A DNA stretch of 64,000 bases from Neisseria sp. GTDB lineage: Bacteria; Pseudomonadota; Gammaproteobacteria; Burkholderiales; Neisseriaceae. Both the position numbers and the translations under genes were made by a program. This document shows positions 30,193 to 40,860 of this stretch, one piece after another (the stretch's first letter is position 1; each line of letters opens with the position of its first letter). Under the pieces are notes generated by a model. It did not search any database. It was not told the DNA's origin and saw only the letters and a list, made by a program, of their open reading frames with translations. The stretch covers positions 1 through 64,000 of the forward strand of contig NZ_JAUMZU010000008.1 in assembly GCF_030527965.1 (NCBI RefSeq), written 5' to 3'.

Positions 30193-33100
30193 ATGGCTAA
30201 GTTTTTTATCGACCGTCCCATCTTTGCATGGGTGATTGCGATATTCGTTATCGCAGCAGGGATTATCGGCATTACCAATCTGCCGATTTCCCAATATCCT
30301 TCCGTAGCAGCGCCGACCATCACGCTGACGGCACAATATCCCGGTGCCTCGGCTAAAGTGATGGAAGACAGCGTACTCTCCGTTATCGAACGCAATATGT
30401 ATGGCGTGGAAGGGTTGGACTACATGACCACGTCTGCGGATTCCAGCGGACAAGGTACGGTCAGTCTGACCTTTACTCCCGAAACCAATGAAGATTTGGC
30501 ACAAGTGGATGTGCAGAACAAGCTGTCGGAGGTAACCGCAAGTTTGCCTGCAACCGTGCAACAATACGGTGTAACCGTATCCAAATCGCGCTCCAATTTC
30601 TTAATGGTGGTCATGCTGTCTTCCAATACGCAGAGTACGGAAGACATGAACGATTACGCCCAGCGTAACGTTGTACCTGAGTTGCAACGTATCGAGGGCG
30701 TCGGTCAAGTCCGCCTGTTTGGTGCGCAGCGAGCCATGCGGGTTTGGGTAGATCCGAAAAAACTGCAGAATTACAATTTGTCTTTTGCAGACGTTTCTTC
30801 CGCCATCAGCGCTCAGAATGCCCAGATTTCCGCCGGCTCTTTGGGTGCATTGCCTTCCGTCAGCGGTCAGACCATTTCGGCCACCATCACTTCTCAAGGC
30901 CAATTAAGCACGCCTGAAGAGTTTGGCAATATTGTTTTGCGATCAACCACTACCGGTGCCAATGTTTATCTGAAAGATGTGGCGACTGTGAGTTTGGGTA
31001 GTGAAAGTTATTCAACTTCCACTAAGCTTAACGGCGTCAATACAACCGGTATGGCCGTGATGCTGTCTAACAGCGGCAACGCAATGGCAACCGCTTCTGC
31101 GATTCGTACCAAATTGGATACTTTGCAGAAGTATTTTCCCAGCGGCATGACATGGAGTGCACCTTACGATACTTCCAAATTCGTTCAGCTTTCGATTGAA
31201 AAAGTCGTACATACGCTGATTGAAGCGATTGTGTTGGTATTCCTGGTGATGTTCCTGTTCTTGCAGAACTTCCGCTATACCTTGATTCCTACGATTGTTG
31301 TGCCGATTTCTTTGTTGGGTGCGTTTGCCGTTATTTCCTATTTTGGGATGTCGATTAATGTGCTCACCATGTTTGCGATGGTCTTAGTTATCGGTATTGT
31401 GGTCGACGATGCGATTGTCGTGGTGGAAAACGTTGAGCGGATTATGGCAAGCGAAGGTTTGCCGCCGAAGGAAGCCACGAAAAAGGCAATGGGGCAGATT
31501 TCCGGTGCGGTTATCGGTATTACCGCCGTGTTGATTTCCGTGTTTGTACCTTTGGCCATGTTTAGCGGCGCAACAGGTAATATTTACCGTCAGTTTGCCG
31601 TTACGATGGCCGTGGCTATCGGCTTTTCCGCTTTCTTTGCCTTAACGCTAACACCGGCCTTGTGCGGCTCTTTGCTGAAGCCGATTCAGAAAGGGCATCA
31701 TGAAGAGAAAAAAGGCTTTTTCGGTTGGTTCAACCGTAAATTCACCAGCAGCACCCACAGTTATGAAGGTTGGGTTGCCAAAGTATTGCGCAAATCTTTC
31801 CGGATGATGGTGGTTTACGTCGTATTGGCCGGGGTGGGCGTGTTTATGTTGATGCGTTTGCCGACTTCTTTCCTGCCGACGGAAGACCAAGGTTATTTGA
31901 TGATGAGTATCCAGCTGCCAGCCGGTGCTACCAAAGAGCGCACGGATGCGACTTTGGAAGGCATTACCAAACTGGCCAAAGGCATGCCTGAAGTGGAAAA
32001 TGTAATCGGTGTTTCCGGCTTCAGTTTTTCAGGTTCGGGTCAGAATATGGCTATGGGCTTTATCATGTTGAAAGATTGGTCGGAGCGTACCGGAGGTGCC
32101 AGTTCCGCTTCTGCTTTGGCCGGAAAACTGACCGGTGCGGCAATGGGAACGGTAAAAGACGGTTTTGCTTTGGCCATCGTGCCGCCTTCTATTAACGAAT
32201 TGGGTAATAGTTCGGGGTTGAGTCTGTATCTGCAAGACCGCAATAATAGTGGCCATGCAACATTATTGGCAAAGCGTAATGAGTTGTTGAATAAGATGCG
32301 CCAAAGTCCGGTATTTGATGCCAGTACCGTGCGATCTACCGGTTTGGAAGATGCGCCGCAGTTGAAAATCGACATCAACCGTCAGGCTGCCGCTGCGCAA
32401 GGGATTAATTTCTCAAGCATCAGCAGCGCGTTGGGTGCAGCATTGGGCTCTTCGTATGTGAACGACTTCCCGAATAATGGCCGTTTGCAGCGCGTTATGG
32501 TGCAAGCCGATGCCGCCAGTCGTATGCAGCCTTCCGAGATATTAAACATCACGGTGCCTAATAGCCAAGGTGTGGCAGTGCCTTTGTCGACCATTGCAAC
32601 GGTATCATGGGAAAACGGTACGGAGCAAAGCGAGCGTTTTAACGGCTATCCTGCAATGCAAGTAACCGGTTCTCCGGCCTCCGGCTATTCTACGGGTGAG
32701 GCAATGGCCGAAGTACAACGTATGGTGAATGAGTTGGGTAATGGTTATAGCTTGGAATGGGGAGGTCAATCCCGTGAAGAAGCTAAGGGCGGTTCTCAAA
32801 CCATTATCTTGTATGGATTCGCCATTGCAGCCGTATTCTTGGCGCTTGCCGCTTTATATGAGAGCTGGTCGATTCCGTTGGCCGTGATTCTGGTGGTGCC
32901 GTTGGGCTTACTTGGCGCTGCGTTGGGAGCGACTGGCCGTAATCTGTTTGGTGGGCTATTTGGTGCTGAACCGGCTTATTTGAACGACATTTATTTCCAA
33001 GTCGGTTTCATTACGGTGATGGGTTTGAGTGCCAAAAATGCGATTCTGATTATTGAATTTGCCAAAGACTTGCAGGCGCAAGGCAAAACCGCGATTGAGG

Positions 33101-33438
33101 CCGCGCTGGCTGCGGCACACTTGCGATTCCGCCCGATTATCATGACTTCGTTTGCCTTTATCTTGGGCGTGGTGCCTTTGTATATTGCTTCGGGCGCCAG
33201 CTCGGCCAGCCAACGTGCCATCGGTACTACGGTATTGTGGGGTATGTTGATCGGCACGATATTGTCGGTGTTTTTGGTTCCCCTGTTTTATTTGGTGGTA
33301 CGCAAGCTGTTTAAAGAAAGCGCGCATGAGCACGAAATGGCCGCCAAACATGCCCTTGAACATGGCGTGTCCGTCGACAGTTCGGAGCTTCACTTTGATG
33401 CTGCCGAAGATGATGACAAACCGTCTGGCAAGCATTGA
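30193..33438 (+). CDS. mtrD: RND multidrug efflux pump MtrD
   Basis: A 1081-residue HAE1-family proton/drug antiporter of the inner membrane. It begins MAKFFIDRPIFAWVIAIFV. Helix 4 carries the proton-relay Asp pair in VLVIGIVVDDAIVVVENVERI, and the repeat half shows GFITVMGLSAKNAILIIEFAKD with the relay Lys. The C-terminal tail beyond helix 12 (about residues 1045-1081) is long and His/Glu/Asp-rich. In gonococci the pump exports hydrophobic agents, bile salts and cationic peptides. mtrE starts 14 nt later. Confidence 0.97.
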   Translation: MAKFFIDRPIFAWVIAIFVIAAGIIGITNLPISQYPSVAAPTITLTAQYPGASAKVMEDSVLSVIERNMYGVEGLDYMTTSADSSGQGTVSLTFTPETNEDLAQVDVQNKLSEVTASLPATVQQYGVTVSKSRSNFLMVVMLSSNTQSTEDMNDYAQRNVVPELQRIEGVGQVRLFGAQRAMRVWVDPKKLQNYNLSFADVSSAISAQNAQISAGSLGALPSVSGQTISATITSQGQLSTPEEFGNIVLRSTTTGANVYLKDVATVSLGSESYSTSTKLNGVNTTGMAVMLSNSGNAMATASAIRTKLDTLQKYFPSGMTWSAPYDTSKFVQLSIEKVVHTLIEAIVLVFLVMFLFLQNFRYTLIPTIVVPISLLGAFAVISYFGMSINVLTMFAMVLVIGIVVDDAIVVVENVERIMASEGLPPKEATKKAMGQISGAVIGITAVLISVFVPLAMFSGATGNIYRQFAVTMAVAIGFSAFFALTLTPALCGSLLKPIQKGHHEEKKGFFGWFNRKFTSSTHSYEGWVAKVLRKSFRMMVVYVVLAGVGVFMLMRLPTSFLPTEDQGYLMMSIQLPAGATKERTDATLEGITKLAKGMPEVENVIGVSGFSFSGSGQNMAMGFIMLKDWSERTGGASSASALAGKLTGAAMGTVKDGFALAIVPPSINELGNSSGLSLYLQDRNNSGHATLLAKRNELLNKMRQSPVFDASTVRSTGLEDAPQLKIDINRQAAAAQGINFSSISSALGAALGSSYVNDFPNNGRLQRVMVQADAASRMQPSEILNITVPNSQGVAVPLSTIATVSWENGTEQSERFNGYPAMQVTGSPASGYSTGEAMAEVQRMVNELGNGYSLEWGGQSREEAKGGSQTIILYGFAIAAVFLALAALYESWSIPLAVILVVPLGLLGAALGATGRNLFGGLFGAEPAYLNDIYFQVGFITVMGLSAKNAILIIEFAKDLQAQGKTAIEAALAAAHLRFRPIIMTSFAFILGVVPLYIASGASSASQRAIGTTVLWGMLIGTILSVFLVPLFYLVVRKLFKESAHEHEMAAKHALEHGVSVDSSELHFDAAEDDDKPSGKH

Positions 33439-33452
33439 AAGAAGGATGCAAT

Positions 33453-34889
33453 ATGGAAAAAATGAATTTCAAACCGGCGTTGAGCGTCTTGGCCGTTGTG
33501 CTTGCACTATCAGGCTGCACGATGATTCCCAAGTACGAGCAGCCTCAAGTGAATGTGCCGGAAACGTTTAAATACGATAAACAGCCCGAGACGGGCATCC
33601 AGGCGGCCGCGGTGGGGTGGCAGGATTATTTTGCAGACCCGCGCTTGCACAGTTTGATTGAAATTGCGCTACAGCGTAATACTGATTTGCGTACGGCAAC
33701 ACTTAATGCTGAAGCCATTCGCAAGCAATATATGATTCAAAGGGCTAATCTGTTGCCCGGAATCAATGCCACTGCTACGGGTTCTCGCGGTCGTTCGGCT
33801 AAAGATTTGAGCCAAACCGGTCAGTCAACCGTTTCTTCGTCTTACACCGTTGGTTTGGGTGTGACTTCTTATGAGCTTGATTTGTTCGGTAAGGTTCGTA
33901 GCAACACGCAAGCTGCACTGCAAAGTTATTTCAGTAGTTTGGCTAATCGTGATGCGGCGCAGCTGACTTTGGTGGCTTCGGTGGCCAAAGCTTATTTTAA
34001 TGAGCGTTATGCTGAAGCAACGATGAAACTGGCACAAGATGTGTTGAAAACCCGTGAGCAGACATACAAATTGGCCCAGCTCAGACACAAGGCGGGTGTG
34101 ATTTCCGCTATTGATTTGCGCCAGCAGGAGGCGTTGATTGAATCGGCTAAAGCGGATTACGCCAGTGCCGTGCAGGGTAGGGAGCAAGCATTAAATGCAT
34201 TGGCATTATTGCTGAATCAGCCGCTTCCGGAAAATCTGCCTGCAGGATTGCCGTTAAGCCAGCAGTTTAAAATCAATAAACTGCCGGCCGGCTTGAGTTC
34301 TGACGTTTTGCTTAACCGCCCTGACATTCGTGCCGCCGAATTTTCGCTGAAACAGGCGAATGCCAATATCGGTGCGGCACGAGCGGCCTTCTTTCCCAGC
34401 ATCAGCCTGACTAGCACCATCGGCACAGGCTCTACTGAGTTAAGCAGGTTGTTTAAAGGTGGCAACCAAACATGGGCGTTTGCTCCCACCATCAATCTGC
34501 CGATTTTCAACTGGGGCAGTAATAAAGCCAATCTCGACTACGCTAAGATTCAAAAGCAAGTTCAGGTGGTTGCTTATGAAGCTGCAGTGCAGTCGGCGTT
34601 TAGGGATGTTGCTAATGCCTTGGTTGCCCGCGAGCAATTGGATAAAACGTACGAGGCGAACCTGAAGCAAAGTAAAGCCTACACTGATGCGTTGCGTCTT
34701 GTTCGCTTGCGTTACAAACACGGTGTATCGAGTGCTTTGGATTTGCTGGATGCTGAACGCAGCAGTTATGGAGCGGATACGACGTTGCTTGCCAATCAGC
34801 TTACGCGTTTGGAAAATCTTGCCGATTTGTACAAAGTGCTTGGCGGCGGTTTGAAACGCTACACACAGGATGTTCCCGACCCGAAATAA
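33453..34889 (+). CDS. mtrE: Outer membrane efflux channel MtrE
   Basis: A 478-residue TolC-type outer-membrane lipoprotein with lipobox ALSGC (Cys about residue 20). It has two OEP repeats, each with a long helical hairpin: SYELDLFGKVRSNTQAAL in the first and LNRPDIRAAEFSLKQANANIGAARAAFFPSISL, then INLPIFNWGSNKANLDYA in the second. The start at 33453 is set by GAAGGA upstream; the frame is open to 33435, which would overlap mtrD. Last gene of the operon, followed by a DUS terminator. Confidence 0.96.
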   Translation: MEKMNFKPALSVLAVVLALSGCTMIPKYEQPQVNVPETFKYDKQPETGIQAAAVGWQDYFADPRLHSLIEIALQRNTDLRTATLNAEAIRKQYMIQRANLLPGINATATGSRGRSAKDLSQTGQSTVSSSYTVGLGVTSYELDLFGKVRSNTQAALQSYFSSLANRDAAQLTLVASVAKAYFNERYAEATMKLAQDVLKTREQTYKLAQLRHKAGVISAIDLRQQEALIESAKADYASAVQGREQALNALALLLNQPLPENLPAGLPLSQQFKINKLPAGLSSDVLLNRPDIRAAEFSLKQANANIGAARAAFFPSISLTSTIGTGSTELSRLFKGGNQTWAFAPTINLPIFNWGSNKANLDYAKIQKQVQVVAYEAAVQSAFRDVANALVAREQLDKTYEANLKQSKAYTDALRLVRLRYKHGVSSALDLLDAERSSYGADTTLLANQLTRLENLADLYKVLGGGLKRYTQDVPDPK

Positions 34890-34944: not shown

Positions 34945-34995
34945 TTTTGTTTTTCAATGATTTATGAATTATTTGAAAAAAATATCAAAAAAAAT

Positions 34996-35020
34996 GTAAG
35001 ATGCTGTAGCTTTTGGCGTC
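34996..35020 (+). promoter_or_regulatory. Candidate ECF-sigma promoter of the bufferin cluster
   Basis: GTAAG at 34996 (TGTAAG with one more base) and CGTCTA at 35017 are 16-17 nt apart, the usual -35 GTAAC / -10 CGTC layout of ECF promoters. It ends 37-40 nt before the doxX ATG. The same operon encodes an ECF sigma factor, so autoregulation is likely but inferred. Confidence 0.45.
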
Positions 35021-35059
35021 TACTCCTGCATGAACAACTTATTTTAGAAAGCACATATC

Positions 35060-35521
35060 ATGGGTCGCATGGCTTGCTTGAACCGCTTTTCCGATACATG
35101 GGGTAAAGATTTTGCGATGTTGGGATTGCGTTTGTTTACTGCTTACGAATTCTGGGAATCGGGCGTTGAAAAATGGAAGGGTGAAAACTGGTTTGCCGAT
35201 ATTCAAGATTCATTCCCGTTTCCGATTAACTTGCTTCCGGTCAATGTGAGCTGGACGATGGCAATGGGTGCCGAATTAATCGTACCGGTGTTGTTGGTAA
35301 TCGGTTTGTTCGGGCGTATAGGCGCTTTATCTTTAATGGTGGTAACGGCAGTGGCATGGGTGGCTGTGCATGGTGGCAACGGTTATAACGTATGCGACAA
35401 CGGCTACAAAATGGCTTTGATTTACATATTGGTGTTATTGCCACAAGCATTGCAAGGTATGGGTCGCTTTTCTTTAGATTATCTGTTTTTTGGTCGCCGT
35501 GCAGTAAAAAAATGCTGCTAG
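35060..35521 (+). CDS. DoxX-family membrane protein of the bufferin cluster (HvfX-like)
   Basis: A 153-residue protein with four predicted membrane helices. DoxX pattern: DFAMLGLRLFTAYEFWESGVEKWKG, SWTMAMGAELIVPVLLVIGLFGRIGALSLMVVTAVAWVAVHGG, and LIYILVLLPQALQGMGRFSLDYLFFGRR. Such proteins (HvfX, TQO-small-subunit-like) recur in MNIO/bufferin operons, where they may support redox chemistry or export; the exact role is unknown. The C-terminus ends in KKCC. First gene after the ECF-like promoter, with 67 nt to the first peptide gene. Confidence 0.8.
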   Translation: MGRMACLNRFSDTWGKDFAMLGLRLFTAYEFWESGVEKWKGENWFADIQDSFPFPINLLPVNVSWTMAMGAELIVPVLLVIGLFGRIGALSLMVVTAVAWVAVHGGNGYNVCDNGYKMALIYILVLLPQALQGMGRFSLDYLFFGRRAVKKCC

Positions 35522-35588
35522 GCTGGTTTGAAATCGAGTACGACTGAAAAGTCAATTTTGTATGTATTAATAATTAGGAGCATGAAAC

Positions 35589-35936
35589 ATGAAAAAAACT
35601 TCTTTAATCGCGTTGGCCGGTGCCATTGCTTTGGCTGGTTGTCAGGCTGGTTCCCAACATACTGCACCCGAATCAGGTGTGGCTGCACATCAGAAAGCCG
35701 GTGAAGCTAATTGTGGCGCTTCAAAAGCGGGCGAAGCCAATTGCGGTGCGGCTAAAGCTAAGGCTGGCGAAGCTAACTGCGGCGCTTCAAAAGCAGGTGA
35801 AGCCAATTGTGGTGCGGCTAAAGCTAAGGCTGGTGAAGCTAACTGTGGTGCATCTAAAGCAGGTGAAGCCAATTGCGGTGCTTCTAAAGCCAAAAAAACT
35901 GGCTATATCAATTCAAGAAGCAAAAAAATGCGTTAG
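35589..35936 (+). CDS. Lipoprotein with six EANCG repeats, candidate second bufferin-type precursor
   Basis: A 115-residue protein. The signal peptide ends in the lipobox LAGC (Cys18). A short spacer is followed by six copies of AGEANCGA(S/A)K, arranged as three 22-residue units, with Cys at 42, 52, 64, 74, 86 and 96. The tail is basic. EANCG looks like a variant of EGKCG, the motif that MNIO/DUF692 enzymes modify in bufferins, and the gene sits in a DUF692 operon with its own AGGAG ribosome site. Inference: a lipid-anchored, metal-binding peptide, perhaps cysteine-modified by BufB. It may also be an unmodified Cys-rich chelator. Confidence 0.75.
   Translation: MKKTSLIALAGAIALAGCQAGSQHTAPESGVAAHQKAGEANCGASKAGEANCGAAKAKAGEANCGASKAGEANCGAAKAKAGEANCGASKAGEANCGASKAKKTGYINSRSKKMR
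35697..35894 (+). repeat. Three tandem 66-bp coding repeats
   Basis: Units at 35697-35762, 35763-35828 and 35829-35894, each encoding two EANCG motifs. Unit length is 22 codons, so gain or loss of units keeps the frame. Copies differ mostly at third positions; the last unit encodes ASK where the others encode AAK. Confidence 0.9.
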
Positions 35937-36040
35937 AATTATTTTTGCAGTAGTAAATAAAGGCGTAATGCCTATCTGAAACAATGGTGTTATCAGGCAA
36001 CTTAAGTAATCTAAATTTAATTAATCATAAAGGAAATATC

Positions 36041-36346
36041 ATGAAAAAATCTTCTTCTTTGATCGCTTTGGCTGGTGCTTTGGCTCTTTTGGGCGGACAA
36101 AGTGCTATGGCTGCTCAAACCAAGCACACTGTTGCTGCTAAAACAGTGAAACCGGCTGCGAAAAAAGCCAAAGAAGGCACTTGCGGCGAAGGTAAATGCG
36201 GTGCTTCTAAAGCCGGCGCGCAAAAAGCCAAAGAAGGCAGCTGCGGCGAAGGCAAATGCGGCGCGTCTAAAGCTGCTGCCAAAACAGGAACCAAAGCTGC
36301 TGAAGGCAAATGCGGCGAAGGTAAATGCGGCAACAAAAGCAAATAA
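36041..36346 (+). CDS. Bufferin-type Cys-rich peptide precursor (EGKCG motifs)
   Basis: A 101-residue protein with a cleavable signal peptide (about residues 1-24, ending SAMAA), then a Lys/Ala-rich chain with three doublets EGTCGEGKCG, EGSCGEGKCG and EGKCGEGKCG (Cys 48, 53, 68, 73, 91, 96). The EGKCG motif is the hallmark of BufA2/HvfA-class RiPP precursors, whose cysteines are converted by BufB-BufC to thio-oxazole-type groups that bind copper in the periplasm. AAAGGAAA lies about 7 nt before the ATG at 36041; the open frame further upstream is not used. The bufB and bufC genes follow. Confidence 0.88.
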   Translation: MKKSSSLIALAGALALLGGQSAMAAQTKHTVAAKTVKPAAKKAKEGTCGEGKCGASKAGAQKAKEGSCGEGKCGASKAAAKTGTKAAEGKCGEGKCGNKSK

Positions 36347-36358
36347 TTGATGCTGTAA

Positions 36359-36380
36359 GGCCGCCTGTATTCGGGCGGCC
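36359..36380 (+). promoter_or_regulatory. Hairpin between precursor and modification genes
   Basis: GGCCGCC (36359-36365) pairs with GGCGGCC (36374-36380) across an 8-nt loop, and is followed directly by a DUS and an A-run without a U-run. It may stabilise the upstream mRNA or partly attenuate transcription so that precursor exceeds enzyme. Function is inferred from position. Confidence 0.45.
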
Positions 36381-36466
36381 TGTCTGAAAAATACAGGTAT
36401 CATTCTATCAATATGTTGGATGACGGCAGCTTATTGATACGGTTATACCTCTGAATAAGGATCAGG

Positions 36467-37321
36467 ATGATGAGTGTGTTAAACGGTGCAGGCTTAGGTT
36501 ACAAACGCAGTATGGCTGATGATTTCTTGCATTTAGATCGACAGACAAGCCCGATTCAATTTATCGAAATCGCTCCCGAAAACTGGCTGCGTATGGGTGG
36601 TGCCGCGCGGAAAAAATTTGATTCTGTTGCCGAGCGCTTTCCTATTGCGTGTCACGGCCTTTCCCTATCCTTGGGTGGCCAAGATCCGCTGCAAGTTGAT
36701 TTTTTAAAACAAGTCAAAACGTTTTTGAAGCAATACAAGATTGACTTTTTCTCTGAGCATTTAAGCTATTGTAGCGACCACGGCCATGTTTATGATCTGC
36801 TGCCGTTGCCGTTTACATGGGAATCAGTTCGCCATACTGCCGCGCGAATCCGCATGGTGCAGGATATCCTTGAACAACGGATTGCCGTTGAAAACACATC
36901 GTATTACGCCCATAACCCCATTGCAGAAATGAATGAAGCAGAATTTCTCAATGCGGTGGTGCACGAAGCGGATTGCGATATCCATTTGGATGTGAACAAT
37001 ATTTATGTGAACGCGATTAACCATGGCATCGTGGCATCAAAAGATTATGTCAGAGGTGTAGACTTGGCTCGGGTAACATATATGCATATGGCGGGCCATG
37101 ATGAAGAGGCCGAAGACTTGTTAATCGATACTCATGGCCAACCGGTGTGTGAAGACGTATGGGATTTGTTTGCCTACACTTGCCGCCGTTTACCGCACAG
37201 CGTGCCGACTTTACTGGAACGTGATAGTAATTTCCCCCCGTTTGCAGAACTTGAAGCCGAAGTCGGTCGTATTGCTGCGATTCAGCAACAAGTGGAGAAA
37301 GAACGTCATGCAGCGGCATAA
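36467..37321 (+). CDS. bufB: MNIO (DUF692) bufferin-modifying enzyme BufB
   Basis: A 284-residue TIM-barrel, multinuclear non-heme iron oxidative enzyme. Likely ligands visible in order: His63 ([10 protein letters not shown]), Glu97/His98 (FSEHLSY), Glu142 (VENTSYY), His173-Asp175-Asn177 ([10 protein letters not shown]), His207/His211 (MHMAGH), Asp221-His223 (DTHG) and Glu251/Asp253 ([10 protein letters not shown]). Family members convert Cys in RiPP precursors to thio-oxazole-like groups. Adjacent ATGs at 36467 and 36470 are both possible; AAGGA lies 5 or 8 nt upstream. The last 14 nt overlap bufC. Confidence 0.92.
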
Positions 37322-38036
37322 ACTTTCGTCTGCCAAGGCGCAAGCTATGTTGGCCGATCATGTTCGCGACCCATCATTGCCTGCGCCAACGGGGATTGCA
37401 CCGGAACGGTTGGCTGTTTATACAAGGCTGGTTCGTAATAATCTGCAGAGCTTTCTTGATTTATGTTTTAGCGACAGCAGTGCATTTATAGATAGCATGC
37501 AGTGGCAGGATTGGCAAAACCGTTTCCTTATTGAAGCTCGCCCCGAATCTCCGTTTTTCAACGATATTCCGGCACAATTTCTTGAGTATTTGAAATCGTT
37601 GCCTGAAGAGGAAAGGCCGTCTGAAAATATTTTGTCGATGATGGATTTCGAAACGGCATTGCTGCATGCCGAAACGGCCATCCAATCTGAATCGAGCAGC
37701 ATTTGGAATGATGAAACGGTGTTGGGCTGGTCTCCTGCGGCGCGGCTACAGGCCTATCCATGTGATTTTGTGAGCAGCGGTCTGGAGGAAATTGATGATA
37801 CGCCTTGCCATGTGCTGACATGGCGCACTCGAGACAATCAAGTATATTACCGGATTGTAGATGGTACGGATTTGTTTTTATTAGAGCATTTTCAATCTCA
37901 GAATGATACTTTTTCGTCGCTTTTAAGTGGTTTGCAAGCCTTGTTACAAGGACAGGATATTGAGAATTTGATTAGAGAAACGGTCAGCAAATGGGTTGAC
38001 GCAGGCGTTCTACTGGTTGTCTCCGAGAAGACTTAA
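37308..38036 (+). CDS. bufC: DUF2063 partner protein BufC
   Basis: A 242-residue protein with the DUF2063 N-terminal helical domain ([64 protein letters not shown]) and a C-terminal alpha/beta region thought to bind the precursor leader in BufB-BufC complexes. The start at 37308 lies inside the end of bufB (14-nt overlap). Its stop overlaps the sigma-factor ATG by one base (TAATG), so bufB, bufC and the sigma factor are translationally coupled. Confidence 0.88.
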
Positions 38037-38617
38037 TGGAGCAATTTGCGGAAAGGCTCGCCGCGTTGCATACCGATATCTTGCGTTTCGCCAAAATTCA
38101 ATTGCGCGACGATGATCTGGCTGAAGACATCGTGCAAGATACTTTAGCAACAGCTATCGACAAACAAGACCAATTCCGTGGCGACGCGGGGTTGAAGACT
38201 TGGGTGTTGAGTATACTCAAAAATAAAATCACTGATTATTTTCGCAATACAAATACAAAATATACGGTTAGTCTGGATGGCATGCAGGAAGAAAACGATG
38301 CCATTGATTGGGCATACGATCACTGCTTTGATGAGAGCGGGCACTGGCAGGCAGTATCCAGCCCGCAAAGCTGGCAGGAAGCGCCGGAAGATACGGTTAA
38401 CCGACAGGATTTTTTCCATGCTTTAGAAAATTGCATGCAAGGATTGCCTCAAGACACGGCTCGTATTTTTTATCTTCGAGAAATTATGGGCTGGGAAGTG
38501 GAGGAGATTTGTGAGCAATTTTCCATCAGTAAGGAGAATTGTTACGTTATTCTGCATCGCGCCCGTAACGGTTTGCGTGACTGCTTGCAACACCGCTGGT
38601 TTGATTTGACTAAATAA
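38036..38617 (+). CDS. ECF sigma factor (RpoE-like) of the bufferin cluster
   Basis: A 193-residue sigma-70 family protein. Region 2 is DILRFAKIQLRDDDLAEDIVQDTLATAI and FRGDAGLKTWVLSILKNKITDYFR, and region 4 is LPQDTARIFYLREIMGWEVEEICEQFSISKENCYVILHRARNGLRDCL. The linker is acidic and longer than usual. This fits the meningococcal sigma-E type that lies beside DUF692/DUF2063 genes and responds to oxidative or metal stress through a zinc anti-sigma. The following 58-residue ORF is the matching anti-sigma. Confidence 0.88.
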   Translation: MEQFAERLAALHTDILRFAKIQLRDDDLAEDIVQDTLATAIDKQDQFRGDAGLKTWVLSILKNKITDYFRNTNTKYTVSLDGMQEENDAIDWAYDHCFDESGHWQAVSSPQSWQEAPEDTVNRQDFFHALENCMQGLPQDTARIFYLREIMGWEVEEICEQFSISKENCYVILHRARNGLRDCLQHRWFDLTK

Positions 38618-38644
38618 TGACGATAGATACGGAGGAAAAAAATT

Positions 38645-38821
38645 GTGAATTGTAAAAAAGCCTGCGTACTGTTATCTGAAAGCCAAGATCGTCGGTTGAC
38701 CGCAACCGAGCGGATGTTGTTACTGTTGCATCTGGCTATTTGCCCTCATTGTCGCCGGTATCGAAAGCAATTAAAATTTATTCGGCAGAATATGCGATCG
38801 TGGCAAGGAAAGGATAAGTAG
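38645..38821 (+). CDS. Zinc-type anti-sigma factor, GTG start (MseR-like)
   Basis: A 58-residue protein beginning at GTG, with a perfect GGAGG 9 nt upstream. Residues Cys3 and Cys7, then H29-x3-C33-x2-C36 (HLAICPHC), form the ZAS zinc-binding pattern of redox-sensitive anti-sigma factors. It lies 27 nt after the sigma gene. Oxidation or metal exchange at the cysteines would release the sigma factor, by analogy with RsrA/ChrR and the meningococcal sigma-E regulator. Small size and non-ATG start make it easy to miss. I see no membrane segment. Confidence 0.8.
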   Translation: MNCKKACVLLSESQDRRLTATERMLLLLHLAICPHCRRYRKQLKFIRQNMRSWQGKDK

Positions 38822-38917: not shown

Positions 38918-39247
38918 TCAGATGGAGGCATTTACAAAGGCAACCAATTGGCCTTTGGCCAGCGCGCCTACTTTGGTAGCGACGTTTTGGCCGTCTTTAA
39001 ATACCATCAGGGTCGGAATGCCGCGCACGCCGAATTGGGCAGGCGTTTGCTGGTTGTCATCGATATTGATTTTAACCACTTTCAATTTGCCTGCGAATTC
39101 AGATGCTACTTCATCCAGAAGCGGGGCAATCATTTTGCAAGGGCCGCACCATGGTGCCCAGAAATCCAGCAATACGGGTACGTTTGATTTTAAAACGTCT
39201 TGTTCGAACGAAGCATCGGTGGCGTGTACGATTAAATCGCTGCTCAT
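38918..39247 (-). CDS. trxA: Thioredoxin
   Basis: A 109-residue thioredoxin with the active site WCGPC in [25 protein letters not shown], the cis-Pro loop [15 protein letters not shown], and typical length. It reduces cytoplasmic disulfides with NADPH through thioredoxin reductase. The start at 39247 (MSSDLIVH) is preceded by an A/G-rich stretch with AAGGAAAA. The frame continues upstream without similarity. Confidence 0.97.
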
Positions 39248-39318
39248 TGTTTTTCCTTTTTTTGTATGGAATGTCAAAAAATTTCTAGTTTGCAGAATAA
39301 AGGTAGTTAATCGAAATT

Positions 39319-40860
39319 TCAAGTCTTATTATGGGCCAATAGTTTCTTTGTATAGTCGTTATCAGGTTTGTCAAACACGGCCGTGCAATCGCCTGTTTCG
39401 ACCAGCGCGCCGTCTTTGAACACGATAACCCGATGCGAAAGGGCATTGATAACGGCTAAGTCGTGACTGATCAGAATCAGGCTTAGGCCGTATTGCTGCT
39501 GTAATCCGCGAAGCAGTTTCAAGATTTGCTGCTGCCATTGCACGTCGAGCGCGCTGGTTGGTTCGTCAAGCACCAGAATTTTCGGTCGTACGATAATGGC
39601 TCGCGCAATGGCCAGACGCTGGCGTTGGCCGCCGGAAAATTCATGCGGATAGCGGTTAAGAATCTCCGCATCCAAGCCCACAGCCTGTAAAACCTCGGCT
39701 ACCTTTTTTTCTTTATCTTGTTGGCTTAATTGAGGCTCGTATACGTTCAGCGCTTCGGAAACGATGTCGAACACATTCATCCGCGGATTGAACGCGCCGA
39801 ACGGGTCTTGGAACACCATTTGAATTTCGCGGCGCAGTTTGGGTTGCCAAGTTTCGCCGTTGATTTTGATATGGCCGTTTGCTTCTATCAGCCTGACCAA
39901 CGCTTTAGCCAAAGTGGTTTTCCCGCTGCCGCTTTCACCGATAATCCCCATGGTTTCGCCGCTTTTTAATTCAAACGACAAAGGTTGCAGCAACACTTTC
40001 TCTCGCTTGCCAAACCAGCCTGCCCGTTGGCTGACCGACACGCTGAGCTTGTCTGCCGATAATATCGTCGGAGCCTTTTCAGACAGGCATGATACTTGGC
40101 GCTCGGGTGCGGCATTCAGCAGCATTCGGGTGTATTCGTGTTGCGGACGGCTGAATACGGCGTTTACATCGCCTTGTTCGACTATTCTGCCGTGGCGCAT
40201 GATGACGACACGGTCTGCAAAACGGCGTACTAAATTCAAGTCGTGGCTGATGTAAAGCAAAGTCATCTGTTTGGTTTGCTGCAGGCGGCTGAGCAAATCC
40301 AAGATTTGCGCTTGTACCGCAACGTCAAGCGCGGTGGTGGGCTCGTCTGCGATGAGCAATTTGGGTTCAACCGCAATCGCCATGGCAATCATCACGCGCT
40401 GGCGCTGGCCGCCGGAAAGTTGGAAAGGATAGGCCGATGCTTTTTCTTCTGGGGCTTGGATGCCGGTTTCGGCCAGTAAATCTACTGCCCGTGCCCATGC
40501 CTGTTTTTTATCGAGCCCCAAATGTAAGGTCAGCACTTCGGCGATTTGCGCGCCAACCCGCATAACCGGATTGAGCGCGGTCATCGGCTCCTGAAAAACC
40601 ATGCCGATTTCCCGCCCGCGCAGGCGGCGCAGTTGTTTTTCGGAGTAAGCCAGCAGATTTTCGCCGTTAAATTTCAGACTGCCGCTGAACGACACATCAG
40701 GGTTTAATCTCATAATGCCTTGCGCCAGCACGGTTTTGCCGCTGCCGCTCTCGCCTACAATGGCGGTTTTAAGGCCTGCCGGAATGTTGAGGTTAATATC
40801 GTGCAGTACCGGTTTGCCGGGGAATGACGCATTGAGGTTTTCGATTTGTAGAATAGCCAT
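39319..40860 (-). CDS. yejF: Duplicated ABC ATPase of oligopeptide/microcin C importer (YejF)
   Basis: A 513-residue protein with two complete ABC modules. Each has Walker A GESGSGKT (near residues 36 and 309), signature LSGGQRQR or FSGGQRQR, and Walker B LLIADEPT or ILVLDEPT. The fused double ATPase with YejE and YejB permeases is the Yej (microcin C/short peptide) type. It overlaps yejE by one base. A DUS copy lies inside the coding region at about 40077-40091, in the linker between modules. Confidence 0.88.

Follow-up and report, generated by a model that had tools for sequence, protein, structure and literature searches.

We analysed a 64,000-nt stretch of DNA from Neisseria sp. (contig NZ_JAUMZU010000008.1; hereafter the window, in whose positions all coordinates are given), focusing on an operon of seven genes, all on the + strand, for DoxX, a lipoprotein with EANCG repeats, a soluble precursor with EGKCG motifs, an MNIO enzyme (DUF692), its DUF2063 partner protein, an extracytoplasmic function (ECF) sigma factor and a zinc anti-sigma factor (Table 1). 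The first-pass annotation had read this locus as an operon in which an MNIO enzyme and its partner are encoded with two unlike Cys-rich precursors, one of them a lipoprotein, the genes overlapping in places on a single strand. Gene calls and Pfam/NCBIfam matches agree with that description, the overlaps amounting to 14 bases between hvfB and hvfC and 1 base between hvfC and the ECF sigma gene. Statements on published systems, here and below, hold for those parts of the cited papers that were at hand.

Table 1. Features of the two-precursor operon, with window positions and the evidence for each call.
Feature	Position	Strand	Evidence
SigmaE-type promoter	34996..35022	+	GTAAG-N16-CGTCTA, pattern after PMC2893595
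doxX/hvfX, membrane protein	35060..35521	+	PF07681 4.4e-21; NF050144 HvfX 133.5 bits, cut-off 80
Lipoprotein precursor, 115 aa	35589..35936	+	Lipobox LAGC then Gln, six EANCG; NF050137 32.9 bits, cut-off 19.5
Six GEANCG units in lipoprotein gene	35700..35879	+	Within-unit differences all at third codon positions
Soluble HvfA-like precursor, 101 aa	36041..36346	+	Six ExxCG, three tandem doublets; NF050137 65.7 bits, cut-off 19.5
RNA hairpin, 10-bp, in gap between precursor and enzyme genes	36358..36381	+	z -4.5 for 36330-36466
hvfB, MNIO enzyme (DUF692)	36467..37321	+	PF05114 2.2e-99; NF003818 386.6 bits, cut-off 360
hvfC, DUF2063 + NGO1945_C partner protein	37308..38036	+	PF09836 5e-17, PF22106 1.2e-14; NF050145 168.1 bits, cut-off 142
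ECF sigma factor (sigmaE of Neisseria)	38036..38617	+	TIGR02943 209.1 bits, cut-off 162.2
Zinc-type anti-sigma (MseR-like), 58 aa, GTG start	38645..38821	+	PF13490 (zf-HC2) 1.3e-6; NF052368 72 bits, cut-off 50

The family assignment was made by scanning the window proteins with Pfam and NCBIfam profiles against curated cut-offs. The MNIO enzyme, whose Pfam match is named MbnB_TglH_ChrH, passes the HvfB model NF003818 and fails the BufB model NF050167 (268 bits, cut-off 310, NCBIfam scan); no Pfam match to DUF2282 was found in the operon, Buf2 membership being judged from the enzyme model alone. The partner protein exceeds all three HvfC-related cut-offs (NF050145, PF09836 and PF22106), and both precursors exceed that of the repeat model NF050137 (KCGExKCG_twice), while the full-length HvfA model NF050188 (cut-off 95) is missed by both the soluble precursor (68.5 bits) and the lipoprotein (18.4 bits). 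By these profiles, with HvfB passed, BufB failed and DUF2282 lacking, the operon is of the HvfABCX class (HvfA/HvfB/HvfC/HvfX; oxazolin/captophorin) rather than bufferin proper. The earlier label "bufferin-type" therefore holds in its wide sense of an MNIO enzyme with a DUF2063 partner, and has to be given up as a family name.

In the soluble precursor, four EGKCG, one EGTCG and one EGSCG motif are arranged as the three tandem doublets; in one other locus (L023, genome G023) the EGKCG precursor is apparently divided over two frames. The lipoprotein has its lipobox LAGC at residues 15-18, with Gln next, and ends in a basic 14-residue tail; as a lipobox precursor in an MNIO cluster it is, by pattern reading, a candidate hybrid of a lipoprotein and a ribosomally synthesised and post-translationally modified peptide (RiPP; DAG-RiPP). 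Its six EANCG motifs are unpaired, and none has Lys at position 3 (0/6). The six units differ in six columns, and their pairwise base differences comprise 53 synonymous and 0 non-synonymous changes (p about 5e-4 for third-position-only variation, under a simple null that ignores codon bias and the shared descent of the repeats). A 3'-end frameshift concealing an EGKCG end was looked for by eye in the other two frames and rejected, as there is none. So far as sequence can indicate, the EANCG motif looks maintained by selection, the variation among its six copies being confined to third codon positions and similar motifs occurring in precursors beside other MNIO genes. The lipoprotein might instead be a decaying duplicate, heading for loss and with no separate role. 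Its tail is unlike that of its relatives, and in the HvfB clade with most precursor pairs 7 of 17 loci show one precursor only, so that a second precursor may be easily lost; an open frame, an intact lipobox and six identical motifs with synonymous-only differences nevertheless make decay very improbable.

We scanned genome_contigs (84,980 species) for pairs of closely spaced EANCG codings, with the first Glu codon fixed and with records very near the window's genome possibly left out, and obtained two records, one from a Nevskiales and one from an actinobacterial metagenome-assembled genome (MAG). The Nevskiales peptide (L114/L068) contains two EANCG, two DANCG, one EAKCG and further Lys motifs including EGKCG. 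It sits about 100 bases upstream of an HvfB gene (435.6 bits), behind which lies an HvfC-like match (29% identity, E 1.8e-7). The use of Asn before Cys in this peptide is apparently convergent. In the actinobacterial MAG (L069), EANCG lies in a short open reading frame of dispersed VLGEANCGL-like repeats; tblastn of the 8-kb locus with the window HvfB, HvfC and DoxX gave no match, and this record was taken as unrelated. In another Neisseriaceae genus (G049, L073), the sole precursor found beside hvfB carries four EAACG motifs and one DAACG, all unpaired, with a His-rich stretch ahead of them. Genome G033 (L061, 12066-12230) has a lipoprotein gene, cut by the contig end, in which EGKCG comes first and EAKCG next; it is 73% identical to the window lipoprotein over the first 57 residues and is a possible intermediate toward EANCG. 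This genome is 81% complete and has no HvfB match, hence it lies outside the 38 MNIO loci surveyed below.

A text search for EANCG matched 13 papers, none of which has the motif as its subject by title, and data set S2 of PMC13097082 may hold it. The first-pass annotation had held the lipoprotein precursor to be undescribed. For the class this is wrong, as NedA, a lipidated EGKCG lipoprotein, is already published (PMC12636315); the claim survives in so far as NedA has no EANCG. What is new is that, within a precursor pair, the apparently lipid-anchored peptide has motifs that are unpaired and lack Lys; the other parts are mostly published.

To place this pair among its relatives, we searched for HvfB (NF003818, E up to 0.001) and found it in 34 of 46 genomes of the genus and in 38 of 83 of the family Neisseriaceae (the 83 include the 46), with 37 of the 38 family matches exceeding the model cut-off. 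A lipobox precursor and a soluble precursor stand side by side in 12 of these 38 MNIO loci: nine in Neisseria (G000, G002, G008, G011, G012, G021, G028, G044 and G045) and three outside it, G047 from a second genus and G065 and G066 from a third, the last two with the soluble gene ahead of the lipoprotein gene. The first-pass annotation had named a lack of the lipoprotein in all related loci as evidence against its reading; this was not observed. Single precursors include one that fits the lipobox pattern (G043) and four that depart from it and have a Cys close to the cleavage site (G041, G040, G006 and G026). In a class-level sample, 98 of 369 genomes matched NF050137, and 30 loci were examined including the window; among the other 29, two separate precursors were seen in L096 and L104, with L089 and L112 ambiguous, and no lipobox was found by eye wherever the N-terminus was visible (it is not in L087). 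On the HvfB tree, three changes are needed to account for the pair label, and well-supported branches force two or more of these, which points either to separate gains or to old pairs with losses.

The lipoprotein motifs are all EGKCG in 10 of the 12 pairs and 4/6 EGKCG in G066. The first-pass annotation had suggested looking for EANCG-repeat lipoproteins beside DUF692 in other Neisseria; among the 12, the window lipoprotein is the only one with EANCG throughout. Four of the 12 pairs have a member that is poor in Lys motifs or free of them and shows no tandem doublets, this being the lipoprotein in the window and the soluble peptide in G047 (1/5), G065 (0/5) and G066 (0/5), so that within-pair divergence, as read from the motifs, extends over three genera and affects either member. 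The G021 lipoprotein lacks doublets and keeps Lys (4/4). We also considered co-evolution of HvfB with the motifs. The position that follows the presumed catalytic Asp (ERD-x-N), equated with Phe250 of FonB by motif alone, holds Phe in 21 of the 38 loci and Ser, Asn or Thr in the other 17, and 10 of the 12 pairs fall in the non-Phe group. As a rule this was rejected, because G065 and G066, with their Lys-free soluble peptide, and G049, with EAACG/DAACG, keep Phe, and because the non-Phe loci form one side of a single tree branch.

Published assays of a related enzyme pair bear on modification of EANCG. In vitro, FonBC accepted Ala, Arg or Thr for Lys in both motifs of a paired substrate, the first motif of which has Ala at position 2; it was strongly impaired by Phe or Glu in place of Lys, and after Cys only Gly or Ala worked in the panel (PMC13097082). 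Other motifs, among them NVCGG, which is in a different register from EANCG, were modified once (PMC13097082). Because EANCG retains the Glu and Gly of ExxCG and FonBC is tolerant at the Lys position, EANCG is most likely modified by HvfBC to some degree. One HvfBC enzyme pair likely serves both precursors. In a competing explanation, the EANCG lipoprotein has escaped HvfBC and acts through free thiols as a plain metal or oxidant trap at the membrane. This would suit the sole lipoprotein among the 12 pairs without any Lys at position 3, and the unpaired motifs recall the one-motif FonA peptide that was left unmodified (PMC13097082). We consider it quite unlikely, given that Glu, Cys and Gly are kept in 6/6 units with synonymous-only variation, that the one precursor found in G049 uses mainly EAACG and a precursor next to HvfB in the Nevskiales MAG contains EANCG, and that FonBC tolerates both Ala and Thr at position 3 (PMC13097082). 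The lipoprotein of G011 adds a further point: it has exactly three EGKCG, one unpaired and two paired, and is likely NedA because NedA has the same number. If so, an unpaired motif was modified there, as NedA lost 12 Da (PMC12636315).

The operon's own ECF sigma/anti-sigma pair, also proposed in the first-pass annotation, is borne out by the profile matches (TIGR02943 and zf-HC2), and such a pair is already known in N. meningitidis (PMC2893595). The anti-sigma factor has the motif residues of a zinc-binding anti-sigma (ZAS) protein, Cys3 and H29-x3-C33-x2-C36, matching the ZAS motif of NMB2145 (Cys4, His30-x3-Cys34-x2-Cys37; PMC2893595). The meningococcal sigmaE promoter consists of a -35 element GTMAGBWTT and a -10 element CGTCTAAH spaced by 12-13 bases (PMC2893595). 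We searched for GTMAG-N15..18-CGTCTA and found one match in the window, before doxX, against 0.04 expected. Two of the five matches in the genome directly precede doxX and a gene whose 530-aa frame encodes an MsrA domain, interpreted as msrAB from the MsrA domain search alone; these are the two known meningococcal sigmaE targets, both of which thus carry the pattern. Of the 30 loci L001-L030, 24 contain a slightly looser pattern, sought anywhere in the locus, as do L042 and L043 (longer flanks of two of the six misses); L032-L034, L065-L067 and L073-L075 gave no match.

A promoter common to an msrAB-type gene, together with a DoxX homologue linked to oxidative or sulphur stress (PMC12452194), would also fit an operon that serves such stress and binds copper incidentally. 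This is compatible with the modification part of the explanation preferred below; as a whole it seems to us unlikely, considering that the products of characterised clusters of similar kind generally bind Cu (PMC13097082).

The gap between precursors and hvfB folds with z < -2 in 37 of the 38 loci tested, the exception being G021 (-1.4); measured over the 12 pairs, this gap gave -1.6 to -8.5. Values were -1.1 to +0.7 for the gap between doxX and the first precursor (six pairs measured) and mixed, +1.4 to -4.7, between the two precursors. The folded sequences vary among loci, several being inverted uptake sequences or terminator-like by eye. The hairpin may act by limiting read-through to the enzyme genes or by protecting the precursor mRNA.

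Taken together, we think it probable that this is an HvfABCX-type operon with two diverged precursors, both modified, which buffer copper in the periplasm and on a membrane face. Support comes from the HvfB, HvfC and HvfX models and the lipoprotein domain, all over their cut-offs, from the triacylation and 12-Da loss of NedA, and from the recurrence of the precursor pair. Beyond the observed gene content, family membership, promoter sequence and motif conservation, we propose the following course. Without stress, the anti-sigma factor would hold sigmaE off, by analogy with N. meningitidis; active sigmaE would transcribe the operon from its promoter, plus msrAB elsewhere via a like promoter. 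HvfC would bind both precursors and HvfB oxidise the Cys of ExxCG, most likely to 5-thiooxazoles (-4 Da each), after which both peptides would be exported by Sec. The EGKCG peptide would be released in the periplasm, and the EANCG peptide, presumably acylated on Cys18, would remain in a membrane, the two together holding copper by a putative division of labour.

Several points weigh against this reading. The lipobox is a pattern reading, and the Pfam lipid-attachment models stay under cut-off. Recent repeat duplication and codon usage could partly explain the synonymous-only pattern. The variants tolerated by FonBC were paired, unlike EANCG, the one-motif peptide was left unmodified, and Asn at position 3 is not among the variants named in the available text, NVCGG apart (PMC13097082). 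Genome-wide, the promoter pattern has 5 matches against 7 for the reversed control, so that only their positions favour them.

A bolder version, possible but rather unlikely, is that a single HvfBC pair gives rise to copper sites of two distinct chemistries, namely paired Lys-flanked thiooxazoles on a periplasmic peptide and isolated Asn-flanked thiooxazoles on a lipid-anchored one. We infer that the residue preceding Cys is attached to the ring carbon of the newly formed heterocycle; the Asn side chain could thus add a ligand or shift metal preference. If true, copper would move from a mobile buffer to a sink fixed in the membrane (or to vesicles), and a Lys-free pair member in several lineages (the window lipoprotein; the soluble peptides of G047 and G065/G066) would represent division of labour. 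The locus also offers a natural test of MNIO substrate range, with one enzyme pair facing paired Lys-flanked and unpaired Lys-free motifs in the same operon. With a soluble and a lipid-anchored copper peptide proposed to be under one stress switch, the role of anchoring may be separable gene by gene.

Around the operon, an RND-type efflux pump with an outer membrane factor (30193-34889, by eye) ends shortly upstream, its genes closed by a terminator of inverted uptake sequences, and a thioredoxin-like gene (38918-39322, by eye) lies behind the anti-sigma gene on the opposite strand. The window contains 43 copies of TGCCTGTCTGAA, which we take to be the wadDUS 12-mer, on both strands, versus 2 of AG-DUS. 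This wadDUS dialect of uptake sequences is associated with N. wadsworthii (PMC3630211), which makes that species, or one close to it, the probable source of the window.

Among known systems, bufferin clusters share tandem precursor genes, and about 16% of Buf2 have predicted lipoprotein signals; their precursors belong to other families, DUF2282 and 6/12-Cys (PMC12452194). The oxazolin hvf operon of Haemophilus influenzae has the same HvfA, HvfB, HvfC and HvfX complement, AEGKCGEGKCG motifs and a 5-thiooxazole, but a single named precursor, HvfA (PMC13419390). Likewise, the ngo cluster of N. gonorrhoeae is of HvfABC type and yields a 5-thiooxazole product, gonophorin, with the partner protein NgoC corresponding to solved structure 3DEE; it differs in that one precursor is named, NgoA, and the word "lipoprotein" is absent from the main text (PMC13097082). 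In NedABC of N. dentiae, a Neisseria MNIO/partner pair acts on a lipobox precursor, NedA being obtained triacylated from E. coli with NedBC; in contrast to the window lipoprotein, NedA has three EGKCG, and a second soluble precursor is not mentioned for its operon in the part of the paper at hand (PMC12636315). The autoregulated sigmaE operon NMB2140-NMB2145/MseR of N. meningitidis comprises doxX, three genes then of unknown function, rpoE and the zinc anti-sigma gene, and has its regulon in common with msrA/msrB through similar promoter elements; it has six genes versus seven in the window, the extra gene being the lipoprotein (PMC2893595, PMC3240639). Both precursor kinds, soluble and lipid-anchored, are thus already published in Neisseria (PMC13097082, PMC12636315), and the unusual feature of the window operon is the altered cysteine motif of its apparently anchored precursor.

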